A stretch of DNA of 21,435 nucleotides from a virus: IMG/VR virus record IMGVR_UViG_3300000576_000030, positions 1-21,435 of that record, one strand, 5' to 3'. Position numbers and translations under genes: made by a program. How positions within the stretch are numbered: the first letter of the stretch is position 1; each line of letters opens with the position of its first letter. Below the pieces are notes generated by a model. The model ran no database searches. It was not told the origin of the DNA and saw only the letters and a program-made list of their open reading frames with translations. This document shows, one piece after another, positions 14,607-21,299 of this stretch.

Positions 14607-15128
14607 TTAGACCTCGTTAAGAAAGGATATCACATTTTCAGGAGAAGTTTCACCGTATGGGTCGTCTTCGCAATTATCACTCTTTCCTGGTTCAACAAAC
14701 ATTTTTTCTACGATTCCATTATCAACAACCGCAGCATATCTCCATGAGCGATATCCAAATCCGAGATTGCTTTTGTTCACAAGCATATCCATGCCTTTAG
14801 TGAACTCTCCATTTCCGTCTGGGACCATTTTGATGTTCTTAATGTTTTGTGTTTGTGCCCATTTGTTCATAGTGAATGAATCATTTACGGATACACAATA
14901 TACATCGTCTACACCCAAAGATCTAATGGTTTCGTAATTTTCTTCAAACCCAGGTACTTGATATGTTGAACAGGTTGGTGTGAAGGCCCCAGGCAATGAA
15001 AAAATCACCACTCTCTTACCGTCAAACAATTCTGATGAAGTGACTTTTTGCCAACGATATGGATTGTCACCACCAATTGACTCGTCTCTTACTCTTGTCA
15101 TGAATGTTACATCAGGTACTCTAACCAA
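14607..15128 (-). CDS. Peroxiredoxin (Prx5 type)
   Basis: The 173-residue enzyme reduces hydrogen or organic peroxides with thiol electrons. The active site PGAFTPTC (46-53) carries the peroxidatic C53 with T50; R130 in SWRYA is the likely active-site Arg. Further Cys at 78 and 153 could resolve. Length and sequence match the Prx5/AhpC-TSA group. The start is a TTG at 15128 with a very good AGGAGG site 9 nt upstream; the next in-frame ATG at residue 10 would remove part of the first strand, so TTG is preferred. It is embedded in the gp32-uvsX operon, two bases after the preceding stop. It is a host-like metabolic gene, probably protecting replication from oxidative stress. Confidence 0.9.
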   Translation of the reverse strand: MVRVPDVTFMTRVRDESIGGDNPYRWQKVTSSELFDGKRVVIFSLPGAFTPTCSTYQVPGFEENYETIRSLGVDDVYCVSVNDSFTMNKWAQTQNIKNIKMVPDGNGEFTKGMDMLVNKSNLGFGYRSWRYAAVVDNGIVEKMFVEPGKSDNCEDDPYGETSPENVISFLNEV

Positions 15129-16777: not shown

Positions 16778-17782
16778 TTAAGATGTAGTACGACTGCGGA
16801 TTTTAGCCAGAATATCTTCTGCACTAGTTCCGCCACCAGATGGCTTATCAGCAGTTTTTTCTTCTTTCTTTTGTTCTTCTACTACTGGTTCAGATTTCTG
16901 TTCTGGTTCTGGTGCTGGTTCAGATTTTTGTTCAGACTCGTTTCTGTTAACTGCTTTTGGCACATTAACAGAAGCAGAAGTTGAAGCAATATCTAGACCG
17001 TATGGCTTATAGAAACGACCCCATTTTGCTGGGTCATACATTTCACCATTTACACTTGCTTCAAACATTTCACTGATAACTTGAACAGCTTCTTGATCTG
17101 GCTTTTCTGGAAGCCATTCTTTTAGATCAAACAAACCATATGTTTCAATAGCTTGTCTCTGTTCGTCAGTCAGCGAAGATTCACGCCTTGCATACTTACT
17201 GGTGCTATAATCGTTGTATCCGCCTTTGCTGGCTTTAACGATTTGGAAGTTAACACCGTTATCATAATCAGTTGGGATATATTCCATATCTGGATCAAGA
17301 AGTGCTGCCTTGATGATATTGAATATTTGTGGACTAATTATGAACTTTCTGATTGGATTTTCAGGTACTACTTTTTCGTTTAGTGTGTCATCTAAAACAA
17401 AACCTTGCAAAAAGTAACTACGCTTTTTCCAATACTTTCGTGCAGTTTCTTCCAGATCTGGATCTTTCCACCATGGACGAACTTCATTTAGTATTGGACA
17501 AGATTCACCGTACATTTCCATACATGGGACCTTAACAAAAATACTCTTGTCAGTATTCCCGCCAACAACACCTGGAAACTCCAGATTAATTTGTTGTCTT
17601 TCTCTCCAGAAAAATGTGTTATCAGGATCTTTATCAGGTAGGAATCTCAGTGAGACTGTTGATCCTTCTTCAATATTCCAGTGGGGGTAAACTAGTGAGC
17701 CTTCTTCTTCTTGGTTAGCGTTATTATTGTTTCTGTTGTCCATGCTTTTTAGTTTTGCACGGATGTCTTCTAATGTTGGCAT
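16778..17782 (-). CDS. 32: Single-stranded DNA-binding protein gp32
   Basis: The 334-residue protein coats ssDNA and coordinates replication and recombination. The N-terminal basic segment (RAKLKSMDNR) corresponds to the cooperativity domain. The core has YPHWNIEEGSTVSLRFLPD, then KVPC87MEMYGESC95 with PWWKD, matching the zinc-containing OB core of marine T4-like gp32; T4 uses His and three Cys, while only two Cys are clear here, so the zinc site may be altered. The tail from 285 is a Glu/Lys/Pro-rich linker (QKSEPAPEPEQKSEP) ending in a short basic helix. It has its own promoter and a leader pseudoknot. The start follows AAGGAG by 10 nt. Confidence 0.92.
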   Translation of the reverse strand: MPTLEDIRAKLKSMDNRNNNNANQEEEGSLVYPHWNIEEGSTVSLRFLPDKDPDNTFFWRERQQINLEFPGVVGGNTDKSIFVKVPCMEMYGESCPILNEVRPWWKDPDLEETARKYWKKRSYFLQGFVLDDTLNEKVVPENPIRKFIISPQIFNIIKAALLDPDMEYIPTDYDNGVNFQIVKASKGGYNDYSTSKYARRESSLTDEQRQAIETYGLFDLKEWLPEKPDQEAVQVISEMFEASVNGEMYDPAKWGRFYKPYGLDIASTSASVNVPKAVNRNESEQKSEPAPEPEQKSEPVVEEQKKEEKTADKPSGGGTSAEDILAKIRSRTTS

Positions 17783-17812
17783 TTTTATTTTTCTCCTTAT
17801 ATGATATACCTA

Positions 17813-17865
17813 AATGCGATTTAACTGCCTTTTATGAATCAAATAACACGCATTGGATTATTTGA
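17813..17865 (-). promoter_or_regulatory. H-type RNA pseudoknot in the gp32 leader
   Basis: In minus-strand RNA, stem 1 pairs UCAAAUAA (17858-17865) with UUAUUUGA (17839-17846), 8 bp around an 11-nt loop. Stem 2 pairs loop bases AAUGCG (17849-17854) with CGCAUU downstream (17813-17818), 6 bp. Linkers are 3, 2 and 20 nt, all sterically possible. It ends 30 nt before the gp32 ATG, followed by an AU-rich stretch with the ribosome site. T4 gene 32 mRNA has a pseudoknot in the same place that nucleates gp32 binding and represses its own translation; the same job is inferred here. Confidence 0.65.
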
Positions 17866-17873
17866 CTTTAACT

Positions 17874-17902
17874 ATTGTAGAACTTTATTTATTACTTGTC
17901 AA
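17874..17902 (-). promoter_or_regulatory. Sigma70-like promoter for gp32
   Basis: On the minus strand a perfect TTGACA (17897-17902) is 17 bp from TACAAT (17874-17879). The -35 overlaps the end of the 17892-19085 gene. The predicted start near 17867 places the pseudoknot at the very 5' end of the transcript. The spacer also contains AATAAATA, which could double as a late element, but this is weak. Confidence 0.65.
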
Positions 17903-19085
17903 TCGTTAATTTAACATTTTCTAAAAAATTTTTCATTATTTTTTTATCAAACTCTGTTACTGTTTTTCCATTCATTAACTTTTCAGCAACGCCTTTTATA
18001 TATTCGGATAGTTCGTTTTGTTCCTGTGCGCTATTAATAACACACTCTAATTTCTTGCCAAGATTGATTTCTGGTGTATAGTACCTTATTACTTCATCTT
18101 CTGGCAATAGTTGTTCATTCCTAACATAAAACGGTTTTTCAGAAAGTGCTTGTATTCTTTTTTCTCGCTTTAGTTTTTCCTTTATTATGTTGTTAATGAA
18201 GGGAAGTGCCGCTTCTACTCTTTGATCAATGTGCTTTACAGTGAACAAGTCTTTTACGTCATCGCTGTTATATGTTACCTCAGTGTCATCACTTGCGGTT
18301 GCTTCTTTGCAAGCGTCTTCATACGTTCTCTTTCCGCTATACTTTTTTAGCTTTTCTTTTGCTATTTTATATTGTTGTTTGGATAAGTTTAATATCTCAT
18401 CAGACTGTTGATTATGGTTTAGTGTTCTGGCATATGTGTTGAATTCGCGTAAGTTCACCATCTCCTCAGTAAGTTCCATTATGTGTTGACCTATCTCATC
18501 TTGGAAATCACCTCCTTTACTTATATGTCTGGCCATTGCTCGGGCAGCGGTCAATAATGGATAAGGAAAACGTGTTCTTTCACCGTTTGCTTCTATATAG
18601 ATAGACTTTATGCCTCTGCTTCTTGAACCTTTTTGTTCTTCGTCTACGTCTTGTTTATGCTTTACTACAACTTTGACATCCTCTAGTGCTTGGTAGCTAG
18701 TCTTTCTAGTTCCATACATTGCAGACTCTAGAACTTCATCACTCTTTTTTGCTTTTAGTCTTGCTTGCATCGCATAATCTTTTGGCTTTATTTGTCTACC
18801 GAATACTTGAAGATTTGTTTTCAGCATATGCCTGTTACTAAGCATACGAAGCTTTTTCATCAGTTTGCTGAAGTCTTCCAGATCAGTGTGCTTGTTTCTA
18901 TTGACAATAATCTCTCTGGAATCTTGGTCCAGCGTCACCATATAGTTTGGATCACTAACAAAAAATCTACGAGCTTCAGTTGGATCTGTTGTTTCAACAC
19001 CTTCTTCAGTGTACATCCTTGCTTGGTGTTGTTGTCCAGTTATTATGCCGTATATTCTATTGGAAACATCTTCAAAATTAGTCAT
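17892..19085 (-). CDS. Probable structural protein next to terminase, unknown function
   Basis: The frame opens at 19118, but the ATG at 19085 (MTNFEDVSNRIYG) lies 5 nt after a late -10 element located inside the longer version, so 397 residues are chosen. The protein is soluble, highly charged and largely helical, with a KGSRSRGIKSIYIEANGER segment near 145-165 and FPYPLLTAARAMARHI after it. I recall homologues next to or near terminase in marine T4-like phages, annotated only as hypothetical or structural. Late expression supports a virion or assembly role. Confidence 0.75.
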   Translation of the reverse strand: MTNFEDVSNRIYGIITGQQHQARMYTEEGVETTDPTEARRFFVSDPNYMVTLDQDSREIIVNRNKHTDLEDFSKLMKKLRMLSNRHMLKTNLQVFGRQIKPKDYAMQARLKAKKSDEVLESAMYGTRKTSYQALEDVKVVVKHKQDVDEEQKGSRSRGIKSIYIEANGERTRFPYPLLTAARAMARHISKGGDFQDEIGQHIMELTEEMVNLREFNTYARTLNHNQQSDEILNLSKQQYKIAKEKLKKYSGKRTYEDACKEATASDDTEVTYNSDDVKDLFTVKHIDQRVEAALPFINNIIKEKLKREKRIQALSEKPFYVRNEQLLPEDEVIRYYTPEINLGKKLECVINSAQEQNELSEYIKGVAEKLMNGKTVTEFDKKIMKNFLENVKLTIDK

Positions 19086-19161
19086 AACTGTATTTACCGG
19101 AATCAAAAAGAAAGCCACACGAGCCGTGGCACTGTGGATGAATGCGTCTATAGATGATCAT
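19078..19161 (-). CDS. Possible 27-residue peptide after an orphan late promoter
   Basis: An ATG at 19161, 5 nt after the TAAATA element at 19167, opens 27 codons (MIIYRRIHPQCHGSCGFLFD...) that end at TAA 19078-19080, overlapping the next gene start. The frame runs through the terminator hairpin and the next late promoter, so most of it doubles as regulatory DNA. It is listed only because its promoter has no other target; it is more likely non-coding. Confidence 0.15.
   Translation of the reverse strand: MIIYRRIHPQCHGSCGFLFDSGKYSYD
19091..19098 (-). promoter_or_regulatory. T4-type late promoter for the 397-residue protein gene
   Basis: The minus strand reads GGTAAATA, preceded by CC. TAAATA ends 5 nt before the ATG at 19085, with no ribosome site between, predicting a leaderless mRNA. 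Confidence 0.65.
19105..19130 (-). terminator. Intrinsic terminator with T-rich tail
   Basis: On the minus strand GCCAC (19126-19130) pairs with GTGGC (19114-19118) around a GGCTCGT loop, followed by TTTCTTTTT (19105-19113). It lies between two late promoters and should stop transcripts coming from the terminase side just before the next gene's own promoter. Confidence 0.65.
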
Positions 19162-19224: not shown

Positions 19225-21249
19225 TTATACGATAACTGGCATCGGTTCGTTATCGAATTCCTCATCATCAGAGAAACGATAGTCCATCATATTTTCTAAA
19301 CCCTCTTCCCATTGGGATATGTGTTGTGACATGCGTATATTTACTAAAAGACTCATCACCAAATCATCAGTTTCACCAGCACAAGCACTATAAGAATTTC
19401 CTTTTGCGATAAAATATTTTAATTCGTGAATCAAACTTTTACTTTTTATTGAAATCCTATCATTCTCTACTAAATGCTTTAATTTAGCACACGCTTCAAG
19501 TTTATTTTGATTTGTTGTGTTATATCCTTTTCTTTTTATTCCGGTGGACTTTCTTTTTGGATCATGCATAAAAGTGCCCGGGAAGGTTTCTTCATCTTGT
19601 TCTCTTATGGCAACAAGACACGCCTCTCCTATAGAGTTATTTTCAACTGTCCAATAAATCTCACTTTTTGGTGCTGTTTCTTGTATTTCTATTGCTATGC
19701 TTTTTAAAACTTTTAATTGATCTTCGATTCTTGTTTTATTATGCCTCCATTCAGCTACTTGTTTTAGAGAAGGCAATTCCAATACTTGGATTGCACTATA
19801 ATCACCGCCTGTGCCCATACTTGGGTCAAGTGTTATGGTATAAATCTTTTTATCTTTTATGGGTTCATACCAACGAACTTGTCCTGTTTTTCTGATTGGT
19901 TGTTCGTGTTCAAGTTGCAGCAATTTAGCACCTGATATAAGTGTTTCTGTGTATGAAACAAATTCACAAAGATGTTCGCGCTTGAATCGATCAGATCCAA
20001 TTTTTTCAAACTCTACTCTGGCCCATTCTTCATCACGTTCTGGGTGTGATTCCCAAGTTGCCAAGTAACCTTTGAATCCATTTGCACCTATATCTTGTTC
20101 ATTTCCATATTCATCTATAGTCTTTTGTGAACCAAACCAAAGTTCAGCAAATTGGTTGTCGTCTTGGTTTGGTGTGCTTGTGATGATAACTTTACCACCT
20201 GTACTTAAAGTAGGACTCAATGATGTCCAAAACTCTCTGGCTATGGTTGGTCTAACAAACGCAAATTCGTCAAGGTATGCGCAGTTATGTACATCAATTC
20301 CGTTGGCTATAAATGATTGTGTATCTTGTACATTGATCAAATCTGACACTGCATGTGTTTCTGTTTCTAAGATTCCAGTAATCGTATCACTACCACATTC
20401 GGTTCTAATATTTTCACCAATTAAAAGTTTATCACAGCTCTTCCAACAATTACCATCTATTGAAAAAAATTCATGATCTGGTGTACACTCAATTTGATAC
20501 TTTTTTGTTGTAAGCAAAACGCAACTTTTAAGTGCAACTGTGATACCTCCAAAGTCTTTGAAACCTTTAATCGTTAGCACTTCATACTTTGTGTTTTTTG
20601 TTAATGCAACGTCCTTTGACAAATCCTTGTTCTTTTCAATTCTTTCTTCATTGCTTAATTTTATGAGTTCTCTTATTGTGCTTTTTTTAATTTCGTCTGT
20701 TTCTTTGTCTCGTACGGTAACTATACTCTTGTCTGTTCTAACACAACTAATACTCATACCGCGACCTGTGTTTTCTGTTGTTGTTTGTGCAATAACTCTG
20801 GAGCCATTGTCAAACTCTACACTTCCTTTGTTGTATGATGTAACACCACAACGTATATGATCAGGAACAGATTCATATGCAAATCTAAGTCTTTGCATTA
20901 TTTCTTGTGCCCCAAGATATTTGTGTGCTGCTATTAAGATTGTGCTATCTGGGTTGAACATTGCAAACCAAAGCAAGTATGCTGAAGCCAACACTGATTT
21001 GCCCATTTGTCTACTAACCATAGCGATAGAGTTTCTATAGTTATGGTATACATCACACAATTCATATTGATATGGATATAACTTAAAAGGAACACGACCT
21101 TTAGTTGGGTGCTGGACATATACGAAGTTTTCAATAAAGTATGTTGGACCAGTAACTTGGTTCATGCACTGTGATAGCTCTTCTATCATCGTTTGCGTGT
21201 ATGTTATCTTTTTGTATGGCTTTTTGACTAGGTTTATATCTACACTCAT
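19225..21249 (-). CDS. 17: Terminase large subunit gp17 interrupted by an intein
   Basis: The ATG at 21249 (MSVDINLVKK) is chosen because a late promoter ends 8 nt upstream, inside the longer open frame. The 674-residue precursor has the packaging ATPase with Walker A SRQMGKS (79-85), Walker B YLDE (325-328) and the ITSTPN coupling motif, then an RNase H-like nuclease with Asp in TLDPSMGTGGDYS, Glu in WTVENNS and Asp in GETDDLVM. Residues 169-322 are an intein; splicing would leave 520 residues, somewhat shorter than T4 gp17 (610). The enzyme translocates and cuts the concatemeric genome at the prohead portal. Confidence 0.93.
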   Translation of the reverse strand: MSVDINLVKKPYKKITYTQTMIEELSQCMNQVTGPTYFIENFVYVQHPTKGRVPFKLYPYQYELCDVYHNYRNSIAMVSRQMGKSVLASAYLLWFAMFNPDSTILIAAHKYLGAQEIMQRLRFAYESVPDHIRCGVTSYNKGSVEFDNGSRVIAQTTTENTGRGMSISCVRTDKSIVTVRDKETDEIKKSTIRELIKLSNEERIEKNKDLSKDVALTKNTKYEVLTIKGFKDFGGITVALKSCVLLTTKKYQIECTPDHEFFSIDGNCWKSCDKLLIGENIRTECGSDTITGILETETHAVSDLINVQDTQSFIANGIDVHNCAYLDEFAFVRPTIAREFWTSLSPTLSTGGKVIITSTPNQDDNQFAELWFGSQKTIDEYGNEQDIGANGFKGYLATWESHPERDEEWARVEFEKIGSDRFKREHLCEFVSYTETLISGAKLLQLEHEQPIRKTGQVRWYEPIKDKKIYTITLDPSMGTGGDYSAIQVLELPSLKQVAEWRHNKTRIEDQLKVLKSIAIEIQETAPKSEIYWTVENNSIGEACLVAIREQDEETFPGTFMHDPKRKSTGIKRKGYNTTNQNKLEACAKLKHLVENDRISIKSKSLIHELKYFIAKGNSYSACAGETDDLVMSLLVNIRMSQHISQWEEGLENMMDYRFSDDEEFDNEPMPVIV
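20284..20745 (-). other. Mini-intein inside terminase
   Basis: The 154-residue insert begins with C1 (CVRTDKSIVTV, block A), has block B as ECTPDHEFF with the TxxH motif, and ends with block F SDLINVQDTQSFIANGIDVHN, the penultimate His and terminal Asn, followed by extein C+1. These are the residues of a class 1 self-splicing intein. No homing endonuclease domain (LAGLIDADG or HNH) is visible, so it should splice but not move by itself. The insertion lies between GRGMSIS and CAYLDEF, directly before Walker B. Confidence 0.92.
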
Positions 21250-21257
21250 AGTAAGAT

Positions 21258-21265
21258 TATTTATC
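21258..21265 (-). promoter_or_regulatory. T4-type late promoter for terminase
   Basis: The minus strand reads GATAAATA; TAAATA ends 8 nt before the ATG at 21249. The same GACGATAAATA string recurs at 19167. Confidence 0.6.
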
Positions 21266-21276
21266 GTCATTCCACA

Positions 21277-21299
21277 GAAAACCACAAGAGTCGTGGCTC
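21277..21299 (-). terminator. Terminator-like hairpin before terminase (copy B)
   Basis: On the minus strand CCAC (21293-21296) pairs with GTGG (21282-21285), followed by TTTT (21278-21281). It would end the transcript of the repeat-protein gene just before the terminase promoter. Confidence 0.5.

Follow-up and report, generated by a model that had tools for sequence, protein, structure and literature searches.

A structurally conserved pseudoknot in the gp32 leader of a jumbo-phage clade is a probable autogenous translational operator

The leader of the gp32 gene in the window, i.e., the whole 21,435-nucleotide stretch of viral DNA analyzed here, can form an H-type pseudoknot whose stems are maintained by compensatory changes in a clade of jumbo phages, and in this clade the structure probably serves as an autogenous translational operator working like that of phage T4. 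The comparison of leaders and proteins established the predicted structure and its covariation, showed that it lies between promoter and start codon and is confined to gp32 leaders, and identified the gp32 fold of the encoded protein; gp32 as the ligand, cooperative binding, and repression are carried over from T4, T2, and RB69. According to the proposed mechanism, the 5' end of the gp32 mRNA would fold into the pseudoknot, conserved by structure across the clade. When gp32 is in excess of the single-stranded DNA to be covered, a monomer would bind the pseudoknot, further monomers would assemble cooperatively along the A+U-rich single-stranded tail next to it, and translation would stop once the Shine-Dalgarno sequence and start codon had become covered. 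Autogenous repression by gp32 appears the most likely function because the window shares with T4 and RB69 both parts, their order, and the gene that they precede.

The gene downstream of the leader was assigned to phrog_1192 (E 2.4e-59), and its Pfam gp32 match (E 8.9e-5) fell just below the cut-off; a sequence search against solved structures gave no match. A structure prediction from 16 sequences had been poor (pLDDT 52), whereas the AlphaFold2 model built from 82 sequences reached a pLDDT of 82. The only strong PDB matches of this model in Foldseek were RB69 and T4 gp32 (2a1k, E 1.7e-10; 1gpc, E 2.0e-10; probability 1.00), at about 20% identity in the fold match, and the predicted fold therefore identifies the gene as gp32. 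The gene order on the minus strand of the window (terminase, structural protein, gp32, UvsX) is also annotated in named jumbo phages, e.g., RaK2, 121Q, XaC1, BF, and GAP32. Two further genes of the minus strand may be mentioned, i.e., the terminase large subunit (19225-21285), which contains a Pfam Intein_splicing domain (residues 198-293), apparently a short intein, and a peroxiredoxin-like gene (14607-15128; Redoxin, E 6.8e-26) located amid recombination genes between UvsX and UvsY. The features of the gp32 locus, all on the minus strand, are as follows.

16778..17782, minus strand: gp32 (single-stranded-DNA-binding protein) gene, 334 aa
17783..17812, minus strand: A+U-rich tail from pseudoknot to start codon, 30 nt, 80% A+U
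17793..17798, minus strand: Shine-Dalgarno sequence AAGGAG
17813..17865, minus strand: predicted H-type pseudoknot of the gp32 leader RNA (whole), from reading of the leader, enumeration, and covariation in relatives
17813..17818, minus strand: S2 3' strand CGCAUU (DNA CGCATT)
17819..17838, minus strand: L3, 20 nt
17839..17846, minus strand: S1 3' strand UUAUUUGA (DNA TTATTTGA)
17847..17848, minus strand: L2, UG
17849..17854, minus strand: S2 5' strand AAUGCG, inside the 11-nt loop of S1; motif also in the loop of relatives
17855..17857, minus strand: L1, UCC (TCC in DNA)
17858..17865, minus strand: S1 5' strand UCAAAUAA (DNA TCAAATAA); 17867-17858 with A-U and G-U extension
17874..17902, minus strand: sigma70-like promoter TTGACA-17-TACAAT, 11/12 match, predicted start at about 17867
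17892..19118, minus strand: upstream virion structural protein gene (phrog_13484, E 1.2e-31), used as bait for relatives

The leader of the window comprises about 110 nt between the structural protein gene and gp32, whose ATG lies at 17782. The earlier note had described two interlocked stems of 8 bp (S1) and 6 bp (S2) with linkers of 3, 2, and 20 nt, and this geometry is exact to the base on the minus-strand leader; adding a G-U and an A-U pair lengthens S1 to 10 bp (17867-17858 with 17846-17837). The motif UAGG, common to several relatives, directly follows the S2 3' strand. The pseudoknot ends 30 nt before the ATG, as had been stated, and the A+U-rich tail behind it runs through the Shine-Dalgarno sequence.

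For a single leader, the pseudoknot was evaluated with our own H-type enumerator, which uses nearest-neighbour stacking, and with dinucleotide shuffles as the null model. The best score of the window was -17.6, compared to -7.05 ± 3.0 in the shuffles (p ~0.006), so that shuffled leaders rarely do equally well, in contrast to the refuting case named in the earlier note. The known pseudoknot of the T4 leader, which served as a control, was ranked first (p ≤0.005). With S1 fixed, the p value for S2 alone ranged from 0.008 to 0.08 depending on the search space, and in most single leaders S2 alone is nonsignificant (p 0.02-0.2 or worse); taken alone, the single-leader statistics are suggestive, no more. 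The stacking energy of S1 and S2 in the window amounts to about -18 kcal/mol, the nested fold to -8.5, and the usual pseudoknot penalty to about 9-10, so that stacking minus penalty only equals the nested fold and the pseudoknot is thermodynamically marginal. Nested-only folding of the window leader lacked the pseudoknot and was not of unusual stability (z 0.21), and since it is uninformative, the decisive evidence is comparative. Rfam covariance models gave no credible match in the window and none at the gathering threshold in 15 clade loci.

The gp32 relatives found in viral contigs share at most 57-60% identity, and their leaders are mostly of another type; a search of viral contigs with the leader DNA returned a single match, L042, which shares the tail, and no relatives were found in genome contigs. 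The topology of the window, composed of other letters, was recognized by eye and program in four gp32 leaders, i.e., that of phage PA5oct (S1 AGUUUUGC/GCAAAACU, S2 AACCC/GGGUU) and, among the viral contigs, those of L034, L042, and, more weakly, L019, and exactly these four grouped with the window in a first gp32 protein tree (support 0.90). The clade was set by the gp32 protein tree and is thus independent of the leader sequence. With the aligned upstream structural protein as bait, further loci were fetched blind to the leader; as a single query this protein retrieved no relatives, whereas the alignment succeeded. In the final tree, the clade comprises 43 sequences (support 0.92), and the window belongs to a subclade that contains 13 of them (0.985). 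The leaders found with the bait repeat the same arrangement, and nearly all clade leaders keep the topology, which consists of a hairpin with an 8- to 12-nt loop containing (U)AAYGY, a pairing partner NCRUU mostly 8-25 nt further on, and 18-37 nt of A+U-rich tail before the start codon (80% A+U over 20 clade leaders). S1 mostly measures 5-11 bp (L253 group: 3-4) and S2 5-6 bp, with linkers of 1-5 (L1), 0-3 (L2), and 8-25 nt (L3). The structure is missing from L271, a clear S1 is missing from L267, and in L034 a nested pairing AUGCG/CGCAU is possible that competes with S2.

Compensatory changes in both stems of related leaders, named in the earlier note as a check, were found for S1 within groups and for S2 in the L253 group and across the clade. 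The window itself is too diverged to be aligned with its subclade, but the nine leaders of alignment A11 have 96% of cells paired, in comparison to 17-48% with the partners slid, and two-sided changes in six S1 pairs; S2 is identical in these leaders and hence shows no variation. Six S1 pairs also change on both sides in the L248 group. All cells of S1 and S2 are paired in the 19 leaders of the L253 group, with two-sided changes, e.g., from G-C to A-U in S1 and from C-G to U-A in S2 of L272 (AAUGU/GCAUU versus AACGU/GCGUU), and the last S2 pair varies between U-G, U-A, and C-G. The covariation scores of these three groups were reached by none of 500 shuffles. Five leaders of the PA5oct group have an invariant pseudoknot and give no covariation signal. 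Across the clade, S2 reads AAUGC/GCAUU, AACGC/GCGUU, AACCC/GGGUU, or AAUGCA/UGCAUU, with a third pair that alternates between U-A and C-G on several branches, and S1 is almost unrecognisable between groups, with its complementarity kept. An outer helix around S1 is additionally present in L253-like loci, e.g., L264:2240-2370, with two-sided changes in five of six pairs (AGCTGC..GCAGCT, AACTAC/GTAGTT, AGTTGC/GCAACT, AGACAC/GTGTCT); its 5' strand directly follows the -10 box, and the helix would thus need a transcript from further upstream.

Of 35 clade leaders, 28 contained the pseudoknot according to a detector, versus 1.6 expected from shuffles; after removal of similar leaders, the count was 23 of 29 versus 1.2. 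These counts should be read with the knowledge that the criteria were fixed after inspection of the clade leaders, with controls treated alike. The detector scored five of the eight leaders that were added later, and S1 is visibly interrupted in the alignment of the remaining three. In the same loci, the leaders of the next gene were at the level of chance (3/32 versus 3.1 expected), and most gp32 leaders outside the clade had no clear pseudoknot excess (16/139 versus 8.4 expected). Several leaders outside the clade scored as pseudoknots only owing to untranscribed promoter DNA or a terminator within the stretch analyzed. A pseudoknot with UAAGUU/AACUUA and an S1 of 10-12 bp is common to L074 and L310, two leaders that also lie outside the clade.

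The T4 gp32 pseudoknot is a textbook case of autogenous translational control. In the operator of T4 and RB69, the pseudoknot precedes an A+U-rich segment that is unstructured, carries UUAAA repeats, and spans the ribosome-binding site; gp32 nucleates at the pseudoknot and then spreads (PMC535899, PMC3014915). RB49 is reported to be without a gp32 pseudoknot, and a study in diverse T4-related phages has been called for (PMC535899, PMC3014915). In the open-access literature, we found the gp32 pseudoknot described for T4, T2, and RB69 only, with no report from jumbo phages. The clade resembles these phages in having an H-type pseudoknot upstream of the ribosome-binding site of a gene with the gp32 fold, and in a sequence that diverges while the structure stays; as in T4, the A+U-rich tail, predicted to be single-stranded, runs through the Shine-Dalgarno sequence, and the 5' end of the pseudoknot lies about 70-85 nt before the ATG (67 nt in T4). 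The position proposed in the earlier note by analogy to T4 is hence roughly the same. The geometry is different: the enumerator gave S1 4, S2 7, L1 1, L2 0, and L3 5 for T4, compared to S1 8-10, S2 6, L1 3, L2 2, and L3 18-20 for the window, i.e., a long S1 and a short S2 in the clade versus a short S1, a 7-bp S2, tight loops, and coaxial stacking in T4. Furthermore, the tail has 18-37 nt versus about 40 in T4, the pseudoknots share no sequence similarity, and UUAAA is absent from the tail of the window, where direct repeats are not significant; a T4-like repeat considered there (CATAAAAGG, CATTTAGG, CATATAAGG) was dropped for the same reason. Conservation of structure at large distance, as suggested before, is thus supported within the clade, where almost no sequence identity is left, but not for the pseudoknot of T4 as such, given the different geometry and the lack of a clear pseudoknot excess in most gp32 leaders outside the clade. 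Because both the T4 geometry and the UUAAA repeats were looked for and are lacking, the structure is not filed as a T4 homologue; its likeness to the T4 operator may stem from common descent or from convergence. Related forms of self-control are the operator of T4 gene 43 (DNA polymerase), where a replication protein likewise represses its own message by means of a structure immediately before the ribosome-binding site, but by a hairpin without pseudoknot and with a different protein (PMC3014915), and the leader pseudoknot of bacterial rpsO, which lets the encoded S15 block its own translation (PMC3014915) and is set apart by its description, being unrelated in sequence and concerned with a ribosomal protein.

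Consensus-like promoters are located upstream of the pseudoknot in 16 relatives. In the 17 leaders checked, the pseudoknot starts 73-85 nt before the AUG, whereas the distance to the best promoter ranges between 6 and 85 nt. Selection on the distance to the start codon suggests that the pseudoknot functions in the transcript, with translation as the simplest case. The predicted transcript start of the window (about 17867) coincides with the 5' end of S1, and the pseudoknot lies 6-9 nt past the promoter; the coincidence noted earlier is thus a trait of the window leader and not of the family, which holds the distance to the ATG rather than to the promoter. A T4-late-like GATAAATA box was observed 6 nt before the pseudoknot in L298 and L283, the two measured among the L248-like loci (L248, L280, L281, L283, L287, and L298), and a late transcript would begin there at the 5' end of the pseudoknot; the window has AATAAATA 18 nt before S1. 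Inverted repeats over the gp32 promoter near the -10 box are found in L264, L248, L045, L063, and many others (e.g., AAGGTTTTCGTA..TACGAAGACCTT and ACAGGTTTTCG..CGAAAACCTGT), and they possibly represent a DNA operator or an upstream terminator.

A genuine pseudoknot might also act without gp32, as a 5'-end stabiliser, as a ribosome standby or blocking element that sets the translation of the gene, or as the site of another phage or host protein, e.g., a RegA-like repressor or a ribosomal protein. Between S2 and the start codon there are only 18-37 nt, which is near the ribosome footprint, so that the pseudoknot could influence the ribosome directly; pseudoknots can be standby elements, as in tisB (PMC7708055), and the invariant S2 in the aligned leaders of the window subclade could be the recognition sequence of any protein. 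We nevertheless consider this explanation rather unlikely, given that the structure goes with the gp32 leader and is missing from that of the next gene, and that T4-type autoregulation is an established precedent with the same layout of structure and A+U-rich tail. Far less probable is a function of the S1 hairpin alone, as a hairpin-type operator or as a palindrome in the DNA close to the promoter, with S2 as a chance complement. The weak significance of S2 in single leaders, the simple promoter-near hairpins of most gp32 leaders outside the clade, and the palindromes common around the -10 box would agree with it, but S2 occurs in about 41 of the 43 clade leaders with both strands changing together, as exemplified by its alternating third pair, by PA5oct, and by L272, and S1 of the clade is located downstream of the promoter. 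Some pseudoknot is found by loose criteria in 12.6% of arbitrary windows in these loci, but that an A+T-rich leader just happens to permit a pseudoknot is scarcely credible and already refuted by the comparative data, since the detector counts in the clade exceed expectation many times over and the covariation scores are unmatched in shuffles.

The gp32 leader pseudoknot has so far been known in close relatives of T4 only, and the current study adds a second, deep clade whose pseudoknot is backed by compensatory changes and which includes cultured members, i.e., the PA5oct group of Pseudomonas phages. It thereby becomes possible to test in the laboratory if the mechanism is old or was invented anew, and the natural variants within the clade may help to explain how a single-stranded-DNA-binding protein that is indifferent to sequence can recognise its own messenger. 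As a tentative generalization, which we hold to be somewhat doubtful, self-repression of gp32 via structured leaders could be widespread in T4-related and jumbo phages with at least two architectures, namely, the long-S1/short-S2 pseudoknot of the jumbo clade, arisen separately from that of T4, and, in a large marine group, a promoter-proximal hairpin combined with tandem GGCA/GGCU motifs that extend into the Shine-Dalgarno sequence. Such tandem motifs are located in the last 55 nt before the ATG in the majority of gp32 leaders of this group (e.g., L151, L158, L203, and L238). Two or more of them are present in 71% of 121 gp32 leaders outside the clade, compared to 2% of 95 next-gene leaders, and repeated 6-mers occupy 705 positions in the outside-clade gp32 leaders versus 230 expected; the repeats may constitute a second type of gp32 operator. 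In L102, L068, L313, and L320 of the marine group, a hairpin loop like YAAACACAGA is kept while the stem changes compensatorily.
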